64,000 bases of DNA from Euborellia annulipes (Eukaryota; Arthropoda; Insecta; Dermaptera; Anisolabididae): NCBI GenBank assembly GCA_023213315.1, contig JAKCPI010005376.1, positions 1 through 64,000 of the forward strand, given 5' to 3'. The notes below the pieces were generated by a model that searched no databases, was not told the DNA's origin, and was given only the letters and a program-made list of their open reading frames with translations. The position numbers were made by a program, and so were the translations under genes. Shown piece by piece: positions 4,107 through 59,322 of the stretch. Every line of letters begins with the position of its first letter. The first letter of the stretch is position 1.

Positions 4107-4600
4107 ACTTGCTTGTTGATTATTGTGACTAACTTCATGGGAATGAGTGAAAATGGCGGGAAAATTTGAATCTAACTTCATAGAAATGCCTGCAGATGGC
4201 ACTGACGTCGTTGTATTTAAAAAGTGAAGTAACGGTCGTGACGGTTAGTTCATTTGAGTCGGAGCAAGTGTATAGTACTTGATAACGACTGCAGAATAAG
4301 CAGTCGAAACGTTGTCCAGTATTTATTTAGAAGGATGAGTAAAAAGGCCAAGCAGCTATTATTATTTCTTTATTGGTATCAAACCCCCGACGTTTCGGTC
4401 GACTATGCGGCCATCTTCATGGCTAGGGTTTAGTCGATAGTAACCCTCTTAAGTTCTTTGATAGACAATTATTTATAATTTACGATCTATCACACTCGCT
4501 TACATAGTATTTATTTATTTTTATTTTTAATAAATAATTAATACAAAAATGTGGCCTATAGCTAAAAATTTCCCTAATTATATAATAATTTAAACCACAA
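4107..4600 (+). repeat. Repeat V, copy 2, split by an insertion
   Basis: CACTTGCTTG through GCAGTCGAAACGTTGTCC, interrupted at about 4333-4505 by another hammerhead-bearing piece, then resuming at ACAGTATTTATTT and AATGTGGCCTATAGC. Stem II is perfect here (GACTGC/GCAGTC). Confidence 0.7.
4387..4428 (-). ncRNA. Hammerhead-like motif, first core base altered
   Basis: ATGAAGA (core C changed to A), stem II GGCCG/CGACC, GAAA, CG, TC. It is part of an insertion at 4333-4505 that splits the repeat described at 4107-4600. Confidence 0.5.
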
Positions 4601-6045: not shown

Positions 6046-6084
6046 CGCCCTGAGGATGGCTTCAATCGAGTCCGAAACGGCGAC
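6046..6084 (+). ncRNA. Hammerhead-like motif, cleavage site altered
   Basis: CCCTGAGGA, stem II GGCTTC/GAGTCC (5 of 6 pair), GAAACG, then GCG instead of the usual UH. It lies in a GC-richer 5895-6170 block that may be a Penelope-type terminal repeat. Confidence 0.5.
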
Positions 6085-12150: not shown

Positions 12151-12229
12151 TTACAAATAATAGTACAAAAGATGTTGGAGTTGGGAAGAATAAAACCAGC
12201 GTTGTCGAACACCTTTACACTTTTATTCA

Positions 12230-12272
12230 GACAGACGTTTCGGTAACCATAACGGTTGCCATCTTCAGTGCC
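12230..12272 (-). ncRNA. Hammerhead ribozyme motif, mirror copy
   Basis: Same core and stem II as 12394-12436. Stem I is GGCA with TGTC (one G-U pair). Confidence 0.7.
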
Positions 12273-12393
12273 AATGAAAGTTTTTTAAGGTGTCCCAAGG
12301 TGTGCAAGTAATTGCCGAGCGCTCCAGGCTGATGCTTCCTATACTATATTAGATTATTATGTATGACAGGGACACCTTAAAAAAACTTCCATT

Positions 12394-12436
12394 GGCACTG
12401 AAGATGGCAACCGTTATGGTTACCGAAACGTCTGCC
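12394..12436 (+). ncRNA. Hammerhead ribozyme motif
   Basis: GGCA (stem I), CTGAAGA, stem II GGCAACC/GGTTACC with a short loop, GAAA, CG (minimal stem III), TC (cleavage-site UH), TGCC (stem I). All core positions match, and stem I pairs 4 of 4. Confidence 0.72.
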
Positions 12437-13139
12437 TGAATAAAAGTGTAAAGGTGTTCGACAACGCTGGTTTTATTCTTCCCAAAACTCCTTCCCCCCC
12501 CTCCCAGCATACAATTTTTTATTAAATTTTTTTTTATTTACAAAAATTCCTTTTTTAATTAATTTTTATTTAATATTTTTTGGGGTTGGGGGGGGGGGGG
12601 GGGGGGGGGAAATAATAAAATGAAGGGAAAAGATTAAAAAAAAAAAAAAAAAAACGATGTTTTGAGGGAATTTTTTTTTTTTTTTTATTATTTTATCTCG
12701 ATTACTTTTCTTACACATTTAGCACCGCCCCCCATTTTTCCTCATTACTTTAACGTTGTTGAGCCCTTTCAAACAATTAAATCATTTCAGATAATATATT
12801 TTCACTTTTTATTAGCTGTAAAAACCGAGTGAGAGAGAGAGAGAGAAGAAATGATGTAGAAAGAATGAAAGAACGAAGGGAGGAGACAAATGAGAGAGCT
12901 GAGAAATAACTGAACGCCTCTCTGACTCTAATTTAAGATTACAAACATTTATTTTCTTTTCTTTTTTTTTTTCAAATAAACGAGTTTATAATGAGCGAAT
13001 AAAATGATTTTTGGATTGTTCTCGTGCTTGAGGTTCAGGGTTCGCTTCTTGTCCCAAAAATTTATTTCAATTCAATTGGTTACCCATCAAATTAAACACT
13101 AGGTTATTTGTTTCAAAGGTTTTATTAATTAAAAATTAA

Positions 13140-13183
13140 CACTTAATACGTATTTCGACAATTTCTTGTCATCATCAGAAGTG
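13140..13183 (-). ncRNA. Hammerhead ribozyme motif, mirror copy
   Basis: Identical to 13198-13241 in core, stem II and stem I. Confidence 0.68.
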
Positions 13184-13197
13184 ATTACATTCTTAAT

Positions 13198-13241
13198 CAC
13201 TTCTGATGATGACAAGAAATTGTCGAAATACGTATTAAGTG
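13198..13241 (+). ncRNA. Hammerhead ribozyme motif with palindromic stem III
   Basis: CACTT (stem I), CTGATGA, GACAA-GAAA-TTGTC (perfect stem II with GNRA loop), GAAA, TACGTA (self-complementary), TT, AAGTG (stem I, pairs 5 of 5). TACGTA cannot fold on itself but could pair between two molecules. The mirror copy is at 13140-13183 on the minus strand. Confidence 0.68.
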
Positions 13242-13734
13242 TTAATTTTTAATTAATAAAACCTTGACAAATAACCTAGTGTTTAATTTGTATATTTAAT
13301 TTTAATTTACAAAATGTTTCAACGAGAACCAACGGTCGAAAGTTTAAATCTTATGGTTACCCATCATCTATTAGCCGTCTGTCTGTCCGTCTGTTGACCA
13401 ACTTTCCATTAGAATTTTGAAACGTAATTTTGCTTTCATATAGAGGACGTTATGGAGAGTTAAGGAAAAATACTCGGGTTCCCATTATTCGACGTAAAAA
13501 ATTCCAGAAAATGAATTTTCCCATTGGAAAGCATTGAGTTTTGTCTTGCCTTATGAAATAAAATCATCGGGTCCGAACTAGGGGTGTTAAATAAATTTAT
13601 TACGACCTGCTTAGAGGCACTAGTCCTCGGTAGCTAAGTCCAACAAATTTAAATACAATAACAAATACAACAAAACAAAAAAAAAAAAACAAAAAATGTA
13701 TGCCATTAATAACATCAACATGTTCATGCAATTC

Positions 13735-20191: not shown

Positions 20192-20489
20192 TATTTTCTT
20201 TTATTATTCCCTCAGTGCTGACGTTTCGGTCCTGTTTAGACCATTCTCAATACAGAACAATTCACAATGGTAAATGAATACAAATTTAATTGAAAATTAA
20301 TTGAATATTTACCATTAGGGCTGTCATTATTAATTTCAATTTTAATGACCGCCCTAATGGTAAATATTCAATTAATTTGTTTAAATTTGTATGCATTTTC
20401 CTAAGATTATTGTGAATTGTTCAGTATTGATAGCTCTGAGGATGGCCCTGAACAGGACCGAAACGTCAGCACTGAGGGAATAATAAGAG
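20192..20489. mobile_element. Palindromic element with paired hammerhead motifs
   Basis: The left arm mirrors the right arm around about 20332; the right arm has one 25-bp extra piece. The arms end in TTTTCTTTTATTATTCCC and its inverse. More distant mirrored pieces at 19655-19720 and 20490-20625 (AGCAGCTAATTATATTTT, GGTGATATG) suggest it sits in a larger inverted structure. Confidence 0.72.
20432..20470 (+). ncRNA. Hammerhead ribozyme motif
   Basis: AGCT (stem I), CTGAGGA, GGCCCTG-AA-CAGGACC (stem II, one mismatch), GAAA, CG, TC, AGC (stem I). Full core match. The mirror copy at 20216-20252 (minus) has a damaged CTGANGA box (TTGAGAA). Confidence 0.68.
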
Positions 20490-20988
20490 AAAATATAATT
20501 AGCTGCTCGCTCTTTTTATTCTCCTTCTACTACATCAATATTAAATAATACATGTATTTCATCTTCAGAGACAGTATTTTGACATTACGTATAAACGTTA
20601 AAACATATCACCTAGTATATCATTTATTATAGTGAAAATCTAATTTAATTAAAATTAACTTTGTAATTTAAAAAGTTTTTCACCCTCGTCTTGTCTTATA
20701 TCTCTAATTATTTCACTCCCCCATTTATATAAGAGGCAGTTTTGGGAAATAAAATTTAATGTGCTGAGAGTGGGGTGCGCGCATCAGCTGGAACAAATTT
20801 GCATATGGGATTTCCTTCATCCATATTTAGGCTAGATATTACACAATAAAATAATATAGATGACTGGAATTTATTATTATTATTATTACTAGGTGATATG
20901 TTTCAATTAATTAATATACTTGATACGTATTTCGAAACTTACAACCAACGGTAAAATTGATTAAATAAATATATACTTCAAGATATTT

Positions 20989-35092: not shown

Positions 35093-35378
35093 ACTCCTCC
35101 TCCTGTGTTCATTTCTACCTAACGAGATATTCCTTATTTCTGGTCACACCAGGTTCCAGCCTCTTTTATGCTAGGGAGGATGTCCTAGCTTGAGGAAGGA
35201 CTCCCTCAACACCGACTCCTTTCGTAGAATGCATCACTGTGATAGGACGGGTGAAACATAAAGTTCCTCACCTCGTAGAGTTGCCTTGGGGCTATTGTGA
35301 TGAGATTCAATATCTGGCACTGGATTGGATCCAGTGCTTGCTTGAAGATTTTTTACATTAAATAAATATTTTTATTGC
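35093..35378 (-). mobile_element. SINE-1 partial copy
   Basis: Body only; a SINE-2 copy follows at once. A decayed head piece appears beyond the SINE-2 at 35680-35720 (GCCCAGGATTTGAACACGGA), so the SINE-2 probably inserted into this copy. Confidence 0.7.
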
Positions 35379-39173: not shown

Positions 39174-39593
39174 TCAGTAGGCACCATGATGGGCATATTG
39201 GGAGAGGTCTTCATGTTGATCATGATGGGTGATATAGTGTTGAGGATGTGCGGCGTGGCCCTCGCGTCTCACAACGGCATTAAATCCGCTATGTTTGTCG
39301 GCGGTATAATCGACAATCCGTTTAGTGCCGTCAGCCTCAATCACGCTGTATGATCCTTTAACGACATCTCCATCTCGGGTTTCCCATTGGTCTTTGACGT
39401 CACCAGTGTGTGGATCGTGGACGCCATATTTAAAGGTGTATTTGGCCGGCGCGTGGTAATCAATGGAGGAATGCTCATCTTCATGGTGTTGATACTCAGG
39501 CTCGTGGTGATGATATTCGAGCGATTCGTGTTGGAACTCAGGGTAGGCTTGGGCAAGGGCTACCAAGGCCACCACTGCTACCAGAATCACGAT
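39174..39593 (-). CDS. Cuticular protein gene A, main coding exon (signal peptide, His-rich arm, RR-2 domain)
   Basis: Exon of 139 codons plus TGA after acceptor gtttgtttatag. It begins [16 protein letters not shown] (signal peptide core), then [18 protein letters not shown] (His/Glu-rich arm), then [17 protein letters not shown] and the full RR-2 domain: [54 protein letters not shown]. The tail is His-rich. With the first exon at 45051-45065 (MNPAQ) the preprotein is 144 residues. The RR-2 domain is the closest of the four to the family consensus. Unlike genes B, C and D there is no intron before the RR-2 domain: linker and domain are fused in one exon. A GTG start inside this exon is not needed once the upstream exon is used. 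Confidence 0.94.
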
Positions 39594-39950: not shown

Positions 39951-40285
39951 CCTCCTGCGTTTGTTTTTAGCTAACGAGCTAATCCTTATTTCTGGTTACT
40001 TTTGTCCAACCTCTTCTATTCTGGAGGATTCTAGGACATTCTATTCTAGGATATTCTAGGACATGGAGGATGTCCTAGTTTGAGGAGGAACTCCCTCAGC
40101 ACCGACTCCTTTCGAAGAATGCATCACTGAGAGGGAATCTTTCTTTACGTCCCTTCCACAGGACGGGATGTCACAGCAACTCCCTCTCCTCGTAGAGTTG
40201 CCAGGGGGCTATTGTGGTGAGATCCAATATTCCAATCCAGTGCTTTCTTTAGGATTTGTTTACATTAACATAAATAAATATTTTT

Positions 40286-40520
40286 AGGATTAGGAAGATG
40301 TAGGCAGCCAGCAAGTAATAAACAAAACTCTATTTGATTATCGTCAACCTTTCGGAATCACATCGATCCGATCTTCAGGACGATAAACTGTTATCGTCTT
40401 GTAGATGGGATATATGTAATTCCCAAACGTTGACGATAATCAAATAGATTTTTTATCACTTGCTGGCTGCCTACATCTTCCTAATCCTAAAAATTACCAC
40501 TCAGCCATCGAATTTCTTCT
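40286..40520. mobile_element. 235-bp palindromic hammerhead element with 13-bp target duplication
   Basis: AATAAATATTTTT occurs on both sides (40273-40285 and 40521-40533). The arms mirror each other from AGGATTAGGAAGATGTAGGC to its inverse, with a hammerhead motif in each arm; the right arm is decayed (TTGTAGA and CAAA cores). It lies inside a SINE-1 copy, which proves it is a mobile insertion. Confidence 0.8.
40338..40386 (-). ncRNA. Hammerhead ribozyme motif (best copy)
   Basis: The minus strand gives TTATCGTC (stem I, 5' side), CTGAAGA (core), GGATC/GATTCC hairpin (stem II), GAAA (core), GG then TT, and GACGATAA (stem I, 3' side). The eight stem I bases pair perfectly. The mirror copy to the right has CG where this one has GG, the expected 2-nt self-complementary stem III. 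Type I layout with a minimal stem III, as known from Penelope-like elements. Activity is not shown by sequence alone. Confidence 0.72.
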
Positions 40521-40625
40521 AATAAATATTTTTATTTATTGAAAAAATCCCGCACGCCCAGAATTTGAAAAGGGATCTTCTTTGAAGAAGCCGACACCCT
40601 AGCCCGCTACACCAGCAAACCCCAT

Positions 40626-41880
40626 TTTATTTAATTTATTTGTAATATCATTTAAAGACAAAAAAGATTATAAAATCCCATAATATATTTAATGTGAATA
40701 TTTTTTATAAATTAATTTTTTGTTATTAACATTTTTAAAATAAATAAATATAAATAATATAAAGAATAAAAAATAAATAAATTTAAATTTAAACTTTAAT
40801 AAACTAAATTAAATTGAAATTTAAATAATTTTAAATTGAAATTAAAAAAATAAATAAATAAAATAAGATATTTAGTTATAATTGAAATTTAATAATTCGA
40901 TTATTACATCCTATTATAATAATTTATTATTATAATAAAGAATATTGAAAAAATTTAAAAATAAATTAAAATCACTAGGTTATAAGTTTCAAAGATGTGG
41001 TATTAAAAATTAATATATTTTTTTTTAACACTGAATATACAATTCAACACTCAATCAGACATGATTATACAATTAAAAGAATTTATATCAAAACTGATGA
41101 AATATAAGTATCGAAATGCACAGTAATTAAATCATTGAAACTTATACCTAATGGTTTCCATTTACATCCTAAGTTTAAATTTAAAGAATAAATAATTTTT
41201 TTTCAACTTTTAATATTAACTAGTTGCAGGGCCTGCTTTTAATTTCAATGCTAATTTAGACAAGCTCTAATTGACTTATCCTTTTTACTTTGCATAACTT
41301 CCCCCGCCTCCTCCTCCAGCCACCCACGCACACCTTTAATTATTCATGTTTACTCAACTATCACATGAATTTCACAATACTTTCTTAAATTTTTATTAAA
41401 AATATTTTATTATCAAAAATGTTTTTAGGTCACCACCATGTTAAAAAAAAAAAAAAAAATACGGATTCGACAAGATTTATTGACTCCATCTCTTTTCCCC
41501 CTCCCCTTTCCCCGAAGGAATTGAGTCGCCCACTAACAAAAGGGGTAAACAAGATTTGATGACTGTTTCTCCCTCTTTCTGACGACATATTGTCTCATCC
41601 TAAGGGAATAGACCAGAAAATCATAAAACAAAAAACAAAAAAAAAAAATATGTTTCGACTTTGATTGCTTGTCTTTTATATAAATAAATAACTCTCTTTT
41701 CTCTTTTAACGAAAAATAGAGGGGGGAGGGATTATTTAAAAACAGATGGAGAGATGAAAGAATTACGTTCGTGTCACGCTAATCTCATCTTAAACGGTTA
41801 TCAGAATGAATGAAAATTTATTTAATTATCTATCTTGAAAAGGAATTTTTTATTTTTGATAATGGTGTGATTGAGTATGT
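40626..41880. other. Very AT-rich intron DNA, no gene seen
   Basis: Part of gene A intron 1. Runs of AAATTTAAAT-type DNA at 40640-40960, then mixed sequence with poly-A at 41442 and 41638. Confidence 0.55.
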
Positions 41881-41884
41881 TTCA

Positions 41885-42590
41885 ATAAAAACACACAACG
41901 TTTCGGTCATCATCAAGTGACAGTGCTACAAATAGAGTTTTTAATCTTAAAAAAAAAAAAAAAAATTGATTATTATTTAGTATCATAGGAATGTGAATTT
42001 TTTTTTTTTTTTTTGTCAAAATTATATTTTGTAAATAACTTACAAGCCTTAGTCTAAATATGGATGTTATATAAAAGGTGTAAGTAATAAATAATAACAA
42101 ATAATAGTTTCTTTTTTTTTTAATATTCAAAATTCTATTGTAGCCCTCTTGCCTGATGATGACCGAAACGTTGAGTTTTTTTATTGGTAAATGGACAGCA
42201 GGTTGCTGCCTTCTGTATTGAATTTGTTGACTAAGACGTTGCAGTTTGATTGATTGCAACCCGTTGTCTCTTTAGCAATAAAAACTCACCACGTTTTCGG
42301 TCTCGTTAGGCAACAGGACTACAATAGAATTTTTAATTAAAAAAAAATTCACTATTACATTATTGGTTATTATTTATTACTTAGAGCTATTATAAGAATT
42401 TTAATTATTCAAAACTCTATTGAAGCCTTGTCAACTGATGATGATCGAAACGTTGTTTTTTTGTTTTTTTTATTGGTAAAGAATCAGCTTCTGCCCTAAT
42501 CGACAAATTCAAGCACACACGACAGAAAGTCAGCTTTACCAATAAAAACAAGAAAACAACGTTTCGGTCATCATCAGGTGACAGGGCTAC
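41885..42590. repeat. Cluster of five alternating hammerhead-like repeats
   Basis: Units at 41893-41921 (-), 42149-42175 (+), 42286-42318 (-, decayed), 42430-42456 (+) and 42555-42583 (-) share TTTTTATTGG, GAAACGTT and CTGATGATGA, and continue into CTATTGTAGC or similar. Stem II is reduced to TGACC or TGATC, too short for a normal hairpin. Orientation alternates strictly. The longest chance open frame here is not a gene. Confidence 0.7.
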
Positions 42591-43762
42591 AATAGAGTTT
42601 TAAATATTTAAAATTGTAAAAATATTCTCCGGCTACAAAAGTAAATTTTTTCATGAATTTAAAATTTTTTTTGGATGATTTTTAATAAATTTATCGTAAT
42701 TTCAGAGTCAAAAATCGTGTATTATTAAAACAATACATATAATCTTGTATTTTTTGATTAATTAAATCACAAGATCCGAACGGTTATAAGTTTAAATATA
42801 TTACTTTCAATCACCATTAAATTTCAATAAACTTAATATTACTTTTAATTGAGTTATAAATTATTTTAAAATTAATGTAATTTTAATATTACAAGACACG
42901 AGCTATAAATAATTACTACTGACAATATTATTTTAATTACAAAATCCCATAACAATAAAGACCGTAGTGATCAATTGAAATAAATAGAGACCTTCCTAAA
43001 TGGCCTCCGATGCCGAAAAAGAAGTGTTTCTCAAAAAATGAGGCCTTGAGGGAAGAGAGCAAATTTTATATAAAGAGCAGGGGGCTATCATTCCAATTTA
43101 GACTGATGAGTGTATACTAATTAAAAACTTTAATAGGCTATAATTTGCAGCTCTACTTGATTATTTAATCACAGAATAATGGGCGGTAATTAATAAAGAT
43201 TTCACTGCTTTTTTATTTATATATACTACGCTCTAAGGATATTCAAGAATTTCATATAAAATTTGTTACATAATTCATAAAGAAATTTTAATAATTAAAA
43301 ACAGAGCCGGGGGGGGGGTAATGATTTAATGATGATAAATATCGAGATATAAAATAATAGAGAAATAACGTCAGAGCGAACAATAATTTTTTTTTCTGCA
43401 TCCGAGGCTATATATATAAATATTTAATTATAAAATATATTTATTTATTTATATCAAAGATTTTTTGACTGGTGGTTCGAATCCAGTCAGATTTATAATT
43501 TTCCAGTCAGATTTATAATTTATTAATTATATTTTAAATATTTTTTTCGATTAATTTTAATTTAATTTAAAAATATTTTATTCATCACTATTAATTTACA
43601 TTTTTAATTTAATTTATTAAAATTTAATATTTATATTATTAATTAAAGAAAAATAATTGTGAGATTTAATTGCTTTAATTTCTAATTGCAATTTATATCA
43701 TAGACTTTGAAACTACTTAATGAAAATTTATGGGCTTTTTTTTTTTAATATAGGCTATAGTC

Positions 43763-46085: not shown

Positions 46086-46124
46086 TTCTCAGTTTCGGTC
46101 ATCATTTGTGACCATCATCAGGCC
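46086..46124 (-). ncRNA. Hammerhead-like motif with perfect stem II
   Basis: CTGATGA, GGTCA/TGACC (5 of 5), GAAA, then CTGAG, where the UH site is missing. Probably decayed. Confidence 0.5.
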
Positions 46125-59037: not shown

Positions 59038-59063
59038 CTTCGAACTATGAAAACAACTGACTT

Positions 59064-59322
59064 TTTTTTTTATAAAAAACACTCACACTTTTTTCTCATT
59101 CACTCTCACATTCACAGTCTTTTCGGCAACTTAGGCCATTTAAGACTTTTACGATAACCGTTATATTAATAATATATTTATTTGGGGTCCAGGCATTCTT
59201 ATTTAAGCCATTTGGTATCCAAATGGCTTAAATAAAATCATCGGACTGCCTGGGGTCCGAACCCGCGACGTTTGGTATACGAGGTTAGCACGCTAACCTC
59301 TACACCAAGCCCCGAGGGCTAC
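59064..59322 (-). mobile_element. SINE-2, full-length copy with target duplication
   Basis: Read on the minus strand: a tRNA-like head starting GCCCTCGGGGCTTGGTGTAG (A box) with B box GGTTCGGACCC, a body containing the palindrome around AAGCCATTTGG, then AAGTTGCCGAAAAGACTGTG, a GTGAGTGTGA tail and a short A-rich end. An 11-bp duplication ACAACTGACTT flanks it (59053-59063 and 59323-59333). It is the reference copy for this family here. Confidence 0.88.

Follow-up and report, generated by a model that had tools for sequence, protein, structure and literature searches.

The window (the whole 64-kb stretch of DNA analysed) is AT-rich, with a GC content of 32%, and the features treated here are collected in Table 1. 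The sole reverse transcriptase (RT) ORF among the window ORFs scanned resembles LINE-1 and R2 proteins. Another ORF holds an insect cuticle domain, and a search with its protein returned many insects, with no close full-length match among the best 120 of 858 proteins; from its sequence, the window DNA is likely that of an insect. Around 40 kb, a member of a dispersed repeat has taken up a short palindromic sequence with hammerhead-like motifs in its arms, and similar motifs recur in other palindromes of the window.

Table 1. Positions of the insertion, its parts, the further palindromes and the resident ORFs in the window.
Feature	Position	Strand	Basis or remarks
Second palindrome	12181..12485		cores 12268-12234 (-), 12398-12432 (+)
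Third palindrome (13088-13290)	13077..13366		cores 13178 (-), 13203 (+); 63-nt tail
Fourth palindrome	20192..20495		cores 20436-20467 (+), worn 20250-20220 (-)
LINE-like reverse transcriptase ORF, 762 aa	27428-29716	-	RT domain; closest solved relatives LINE-1 ORF2p and R2
Insect cuticle domain ORF	39174-39593	-	Pfam
Dispersed-repeat member that took up the insertion (extent approximate)	40065..40648	n/a	numerous related sites in the window
Left copy of the 13-bp target duplication AATAAATATTTTT	40273..40285	+	exact repeat; empty sites
235-bp insertion	40286..40520		between exact AATAAATATTTTT copies; absent from empty sites
Left arm, inverted copy	40286..40389	-	palindrome 40280-40494
Left-arm hammerhead-like motif	40338..40386	-	8-bp stem I, CTGAAGA, stem II region, GAAA, GG, TT
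Right arm	40390..40494	+	palindrome 40280-40494
Right-arm hammerhead-like motif	40391..40439	+	worn at C3, A6, G12; stem III CG kept
Unpaired tail, 26 nt, one side only	40495..40520	+	ends 116 nt from the A of the right-arm ATG
Right copy of the target duplication AATAAATATTTTT	40521..40533	+	exact repeat; empty sites
Fifth locus, five related units in alternating orientation	41883..42624		cores 41916 (-), 42153 (+), decayed ~42300 (-), 42435 (+), 42577 (-)

The 235-bp insertion and its host repeat

The segment 40286-40520 is a genuine insertion. It is missing in 8/8 of the host-repeat relatives that span the junction within the window, four of which hold a single exact AATAAATATTTTT and four altered or deleted forms of it; seven partial copies that reach or lie near the AT-rich stretch without spanning the junction were left out of this count. 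The exact 13-bp target duplication reported in the first-pass annotation was found as described, two copies of AATAAATATTTTT bounding exactly 235 bp (with the following A, the direct repeat reaches 14 nt). The short repeat alone is weak evidence, since the 13-mer occurs 9 times in the 64 kb vs 0.12 expected, several of them within host-repeat copies; given the empty sites, neither the insertion nor its target duplication depends on it alone. Another host-repeat copy (35175-35374), which does not span the junction, is broken at the same AT-rich motif by a SINE that extends from 35374 to ~35640 and has a relative at 59063-59319 (82%). This SINE is labelled tRNA-like from what we take to be pol III box-like sequences, and the LINE-like ORF of the window is a possible source of its enzyme.

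The mirrored arms described in the same annotation are also present, the palindrome pairing at 86% over 218 columns. Its outermost nucleotides on the left, ATTTTT at 40280-40285, are target DNA that extends the arm pairing and form a 6-nt microhomology at the left junction, because of which the true target duplication may measure from 7 to 13 nt. The insertion contains no coding region (it is too short for an RT or GIY-YIG ORF), and this, together with the empty sites and the target duplication, bears out its description as a tiny non-autonomous element. The predicted fold of the 235 bp is a single long hairpin on both strands (-128.9 and -139.4 kcal/mol), which would compete with any ribozyme fold. 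A microRNA precursor was considered and rejected, as the Rfam matches in question lie under the gathering score and are expected of any long hairpin. Elsewhere in the window, the arms find nothing past short chance matches; a 19-mer taken from them is absent from the viral contigs introduced below and occurs twice in genome contigs, where we estimate ~2 occurrences by chance, so that no relatives emerged from either set.

Hammerhead-like motifs in the arms

The left arm, read on the minus strand from 40386 down to 40338, presents an 8-bp stem I, CTGAAGA, an 18-nt stem II region, GAAA, GGTT and the second stem I strand, i.e., the order that had been recognized at first pass. An early reading, in which stem I was the terminal loop hairpin of a type III ribozyme with no NUH triplet, was rejected, since stem I pairs across the core and the layout is that of type I. 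The qualification of the motif as near-perfect proved too generous: the core letters of the left arm are kept, but the closing pair of stem II is C.C, stem III is GG where CG is expected, and the predicted fold pairs the G and first A of GAAA into stem II. The right arm keeps CG at stem III and has a worn core, as had been noticed, with changes at C3, A6 and G12 (in hammerhead numbering), and carries an ATG at 40405-40407, at the start of stem II. Neither arm at 40 kb holds the complete set expected of an active hammerhead (core C3 to A9, G12 to A15.1, U16.1, H17, and stems I-III); each keeps features that the other has lost, the lesions being different, and both cores are probably dead. Differences between the arms amount to 8/33 positions between the stem I octamers vs 2/65 elsewhere (one 3-nt gap excluded; P 0.002), as if either the motif region decayed faster, or the outer arms were kept alike, or the loss of cleavage was favoured. 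Furthermore, the suggestion that the mirrored layout puts two ribozymes on one transcript does not hold: the left motif lies on the minus strand and the right one on the plus strand, so any single transcript reads one motif in the sense direction and the other only as its complement.

With an exact-core type I descriptor and a stem I of at least 6 bp, the left arm is the sole match in the window. The same descriptor gave 3 matches in 60 Markov windows, all with a stem III exceeding 4 nt and a stem I of 6 bp, never of 7 bp or more; nor did these windows contain any match combining a stem I of at least 5 bp with a stem III of up to 4 nt. A relaxed descriptor is weak in comparison, as the left arm scores 17, the maximum in 12 Markov windows is 16, and a T-run artefact of the window reaches 18.

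Two covariance models were built. A hammerhead pattern retrieved 33 stretches from viral contigs, in 16 of which stem II pairs over at least 4 bp; eleven of these 16 were used, leaving out four duplicates of included sequences and one more (L017), and none is established as belonging to a Penelope-like element (PLE). Model R1 joins the 11 viral-contig motifs to three other window motifs, with the 40-kb candidate left out, and model R2 contains the viral-contig motifs only and no window sequence; both are partly dependent on the window, because window motifs had served to design the pattern that retrieved the viral ones, and these were then chosen for a paired stem II. Among the 14 sequences, the stem II helix shows two-sided changes at 4/6 pairs and a covariation score of 0.551 vs 0.103 when shuffled (0/500), in a test that tilts towards structure, as stem II pairing had guided the choice of most sequences; the number of pairs with two-sided changes was equalled in 53/500 shuffles. 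Five of the viral contigs (L014, L017, L021, L029, L031) have at least two hammerhead-like motifs each, with one extra U before stem II.

By covariance models, with which the first-pass annotation proposed that the motif be judged, the 40-kb motif is marginal: R1 gives the left arm 16.0 bits (E 0.074 window-wide) and the right arm 10.0 bits (E 1.8), and R2 gives them 10.4 bits (E 1.4) and 7.0 bits (E 8.2), respectively. Rfam gave no hammerhead at the gathering threshold in the whole window, and none at E<=10 on four window stretches that included the 40-kb insertion, 12.2-12.4 kb and 20.4 kb; for the 40-kb motif this negative says little, because Rfam also misses the better cores at 12.2-12.4 and 20.4 kb. 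In six of the viral loci (L003, L004, L011, L016, L020, L033), Rfam returned nothing at the gathering score, and L011 has a sub-threshold Hammerhead_II match that partly overlaps the motif.

It is rather improbable that the 40-kb likeness is a chance match within an unrelated palindrome, only the other loci being hammerhead-bearing. The E value under R2, a relaxed score barely above the simulated maxima and the concentration of arm differences inside the motif would suit such an accident; the exact core order joined to an 8-bp stem I, the different lesions by which each arm keeps what the other lost, and the window-wide R1 score of a candidate absent from the training set argue against it. Taken alone, the 40-kb motif is suggestive, and it becomes credible because of its place among neighbouring hammerhead-like loci.

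Other hammerhead-bearing loci in the window

Four more palindromic loci with unrelated arms (12.2-12.5, 13.1-13.3, 20.2-20.5 and 41.9-42.6 kb) have hammerhead-like cores, some of them better kept. Comparison by BLAST of seven hammerhead-bearing stretches against each other gave no common arms; the sole match, of 14 nt, joins the 42- and 46-kb cores. In both 12-kb cores, GG/CC pairs close stem II, CGTC follows GAAA, and R2 gives 26.2 bits (E 0.00028 each). At 13 kb, each arm shows the layout and keeps its core letters exact (under R1, 13.3 bits, E 0.31; under R2, 14.4 bits, E 0.15), and the locus is bounded by the copies of a 13-bp direct repeat, TGGTTACCCATCA, at 13077-13089 and 13354-13366, a target duplication that is only modest evidence because a 13-nt repeat in the same geometry appears at 1046/20000 real places (38/20000 Markov trials). 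The units at 42 kb have a stem II shrunk to 5 nt, with GATG and GAAACGTT kept in four of the five; the decayed unit (~42300) has no score in R1 or R2. A clear target duplication is thus seen at 2/5 of the hammerhead palindromes, and at 12, 20 and 42 kb no repeat longer than 10 nt turned up, or than 11 nt when one mismatch is allowed; we took those present as chance or as the units themselves. All paired cores diverge (12, 13, 20, 40 and 41.9/42.15 kb) except those at 42.4/42.6 kb, which converge.

When spacers of up to 400 bp are allowed, palindromes take up 5.8% of the window; merging gives 15 loci, of which five (12, 13, 20, 40 and 42 kb) have hammerhead-like cores and ten have no hammerhead match. 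Matches of R1 at E<0.1 fall inside palindromes at 4/7 loci (P 0.0003), the training set having included members from 2 of the 4 palindromic and 1 of the 3 other loci; those of R2 do so at 3/5 loci (P 0.0017). The 13-kb palindrome, whose E is above 0.1, is counted in neither enrichment. The R2 cores at E<0.1 are those at 12.2, 12.4, 20.4, 42.15, 42.4, 42.6, 46.1, 4.4, 41.9 and 4.3 kb, and three loci of the window together contain 6 instances of the string CTGAnGA...GAAACGT[ACT], vs 0 in 60 Markov windows. A GATG lies at the start of stem II in the 40-kb right arm, as well as in the motifs at 12, 13, 20.4, 42, 46, 6.05 and 4.4 kb. Measured from the ATG of stem II, the insert ends at +116 at 40 kb and at +145 at 13 kb, the latter outside 111-118. 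Hammerhead-like cores also lie outside palindromes (6050-6081, 46091-46121, 4389-4420, 4279-4313 and 173-207), those at 4279 and 173 belonging to copies of one repeat (CTGCAGA form).

Penelope-like anatomy and the probable origin of the insertion

In the available text of PMC3846280, the Penelope copies of Adineta vaga are completed by an adjacent inverted pseudo-LTR (pLTR), with palindromes at the inverted junctions; head-to-head is the arrangement most often observed, one inverted pLTR may have an optional 31-bp tail, and target duplications measure 8-10 bp, some copies having none. Also reported there are solo pLTRs and cases, with target duplications, in which unrelated sequence lies between pLTRs; the likely cause given is self-priming on an antisense template. 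Inverted pLTRs with short 3' extensions are mentioned as well in the accessible part of PMC8969392. For the Anolis Poseidon element PAc, PMC11167929 describes internal initiation and AT-rich cutting, and a hammerhead that cuts only with the protein present and is dispensable for insertion in vitro.

The insertion at 40 kb resembles these elements, as far as the same parts of PMC3846280 and PMC11167929 describe them, in its inverted head-to-head arms, short one-sided tail, target duplication, AT-rich target and hammerhead layout, the last with an ATG (in the right arm) at the start of stem II. Trait by trait, the short target duplication at an AT-rich site is present (13 bp, with its empty sites); the two inverted arms, pairing at 86%, are arranged like the inverted pLTRs of PMC3846280 and may be those of a PLE; the one-sided tail, of 26 nt, is slightly under the ~30-40 nt published, that at 13 kb (63 nt) being longer; and, of the minimal type I hammerhead that in PLEs overlaps the start of the ORF, the layout and the right-arm ATG are there with worn cores. 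It differs from PLEs in having no RT/GIY-YIG ORF between its arms, in its worn cores, in a target duplication longer than that of PMC3846280 (as far as its available text goes) and in that a single window of 64 kb holds several sets whose arms are unrelated. By Pfam, no PLE RT or GIY-YIG domain was found among all 9 window ORFs of at least 120 aa, and no PLE domain in 13 of the 26 shorter ORFs near three solitary hammerhead loci; decayed PLE pieces could have escaped these scans. Thus, the link with Penelope advanced at first pass agrees with the anatomy and has no PLE protein among the window ORFs scanned to accompany it, and the 40-kb element is at most a non-autonomous PLE derivative, because its 235 bp hold no RT/GIY-YIG ORF.

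Other published groups come close in part. Minimal type I hammerheads of animals are, in the accessible text of PMC7761336, mostly dispersed in non-coding DNA, some lying in PLE pseudo-LTRs; at five loci of the window they form mirrored pairs inside palindromic elements, for the most part divergent ones. Metazoan retrozymes, as described in the part of PMC7229834 available, are non-autonomous short tandem repeats of ~170-400 nt with type I hammerheads and low GC. The 40-kb element is like them in its small size, type I hammerhead layout, low GC and non-autonomous nature, but its units are inverted and theirs are direct and tandem. In the literature searched, which left out key hammerhead-PLE papers, we found no description of ORF-less head-to-head pLTR hairpins with paired hammerheads.

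By analogy with the Penelope elements, the 235-bp insertion can be read, with a probability of about 0.64, as a gene-less head-to-head pair of Penelope-type pseudo-LTRs, copied in from RNA and likely inserted by a PLE enzyme in trans. On the same reading, the five mirrored loci are likely the smallest gene-less remnants of Penelope-like elements. A PLE RT/endonuclease encoded elsewhere would bind the pseudo-LTR RNA and nick an AT-rich site; copying would start inside the template, leaving a one-sided tail; cDNA fold-back or a template switch would yield the inverted second arm, which would join the target via the 6-nt ATTTTT microhomology. The hammerhead would be inherited from the pseudo-LTR and carried along, with one sense copy on the transcript of each strand; stem III being minimal, any cleavage would call for two RNA molecules. 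The one-sided tails at 40 and 13 kb fit both the optional tail in the available text of PMC3846280 and the internal initiation of PAc in that of PMC11167929, and the divergent pairs match the head-to-head arrangement of the former. Counting against the Penelope reading are the marginal score of the 40-kb hammerhead, the ten palindromes with no hammerhead match, the convergent 42-kb pair, the loci outside palindromes (4.3, 6.05 and 46.1 kb), target duplications clear at only two of five palindromes and longer than those published, the 13-kb end at +145, and the dispensability of the hammerhead for PAc insertion in vitro (PMC11167929, in the part available).

An insertion that is short, AT-rich, palindromic, gene-less and flanked by a target duplication is also what MITEs and foldback elements look like, and the ten palindromes with no hammerhead match indicate that palindromes of other origin are common in the window. 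It is nevertheless unlikely that a transposase moved the element by its arms, as terminal inverted repeats, with the hammerhead likeness irrelevant to mobility. The 40-kb element differs from those groups by its ribozyme-like cores and by its unpaired tail, which stands between the right arm and the target duplication where cut-and-paste ends should abut (as does the longer tail at 13 kb); the target duplication, which would be expected to adjoin both inverted repeats of a MITE, does not do so at 40 kb. Mirrored hammerhead-like cores recur at loci with unrelated arms, and 13 bp exceeds the fixed lengths usual for target duplications.

It is distinctly unlikely that the insertion is a SINE-like hairpin RNA which a LINE mobilised by target-primed reverse transcription, even with a LINE-like RT ORF in the window and a tRNA-like SINE lodged in another copy of the host repeat at the same AT-rich motif. 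On the minus strand, the target duplication starts with AAAAA and the 40-kb tail contains TGGCTGAGTGG, which we take to be a match to the pol III A box; the B box is absent, TTTTT comes soon after the A box, and no A-rich tail extends beyond the target duplication in either orientation. The recurrence of hammerhead-like cores in other palindromes would be left unexplained by this route.

More broadly, and tentatively, the dispersed minimal hammerheads of animals could largely be the arms of ORF-less hairpin transposons, i.e., palindromic pLTR pairs with one ribozyme per strand that originate in fold-back cDNA synthesis and are multiplied in trans by Penelope RTs; they would have arisen independently many times (five unrelated sets in 64 kb), with both ribozymes later lost in some, as at 40 kb. 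We regard this as possible and still doubtful. If true, mirrored hammerhead pairs in gene-less insertions would be the smallest unit that the PLE machinery can move, would tie the dispersed animal ribozymes to a mechanism of birth, fold-back copying, and would offer natural substrates for testing the purpose of the ribozyme, whose role in PLEs is called unknown in the accessible text of PMC7761336.

Reading by eye from the ATG of stem II, CCGAAACG is in frame and gives (T/S)-E-T at 12398, 20436, 6050, 4420 (where this frame comes after an in-frame stop) and 42577, as if the motif had once begun an ORF.
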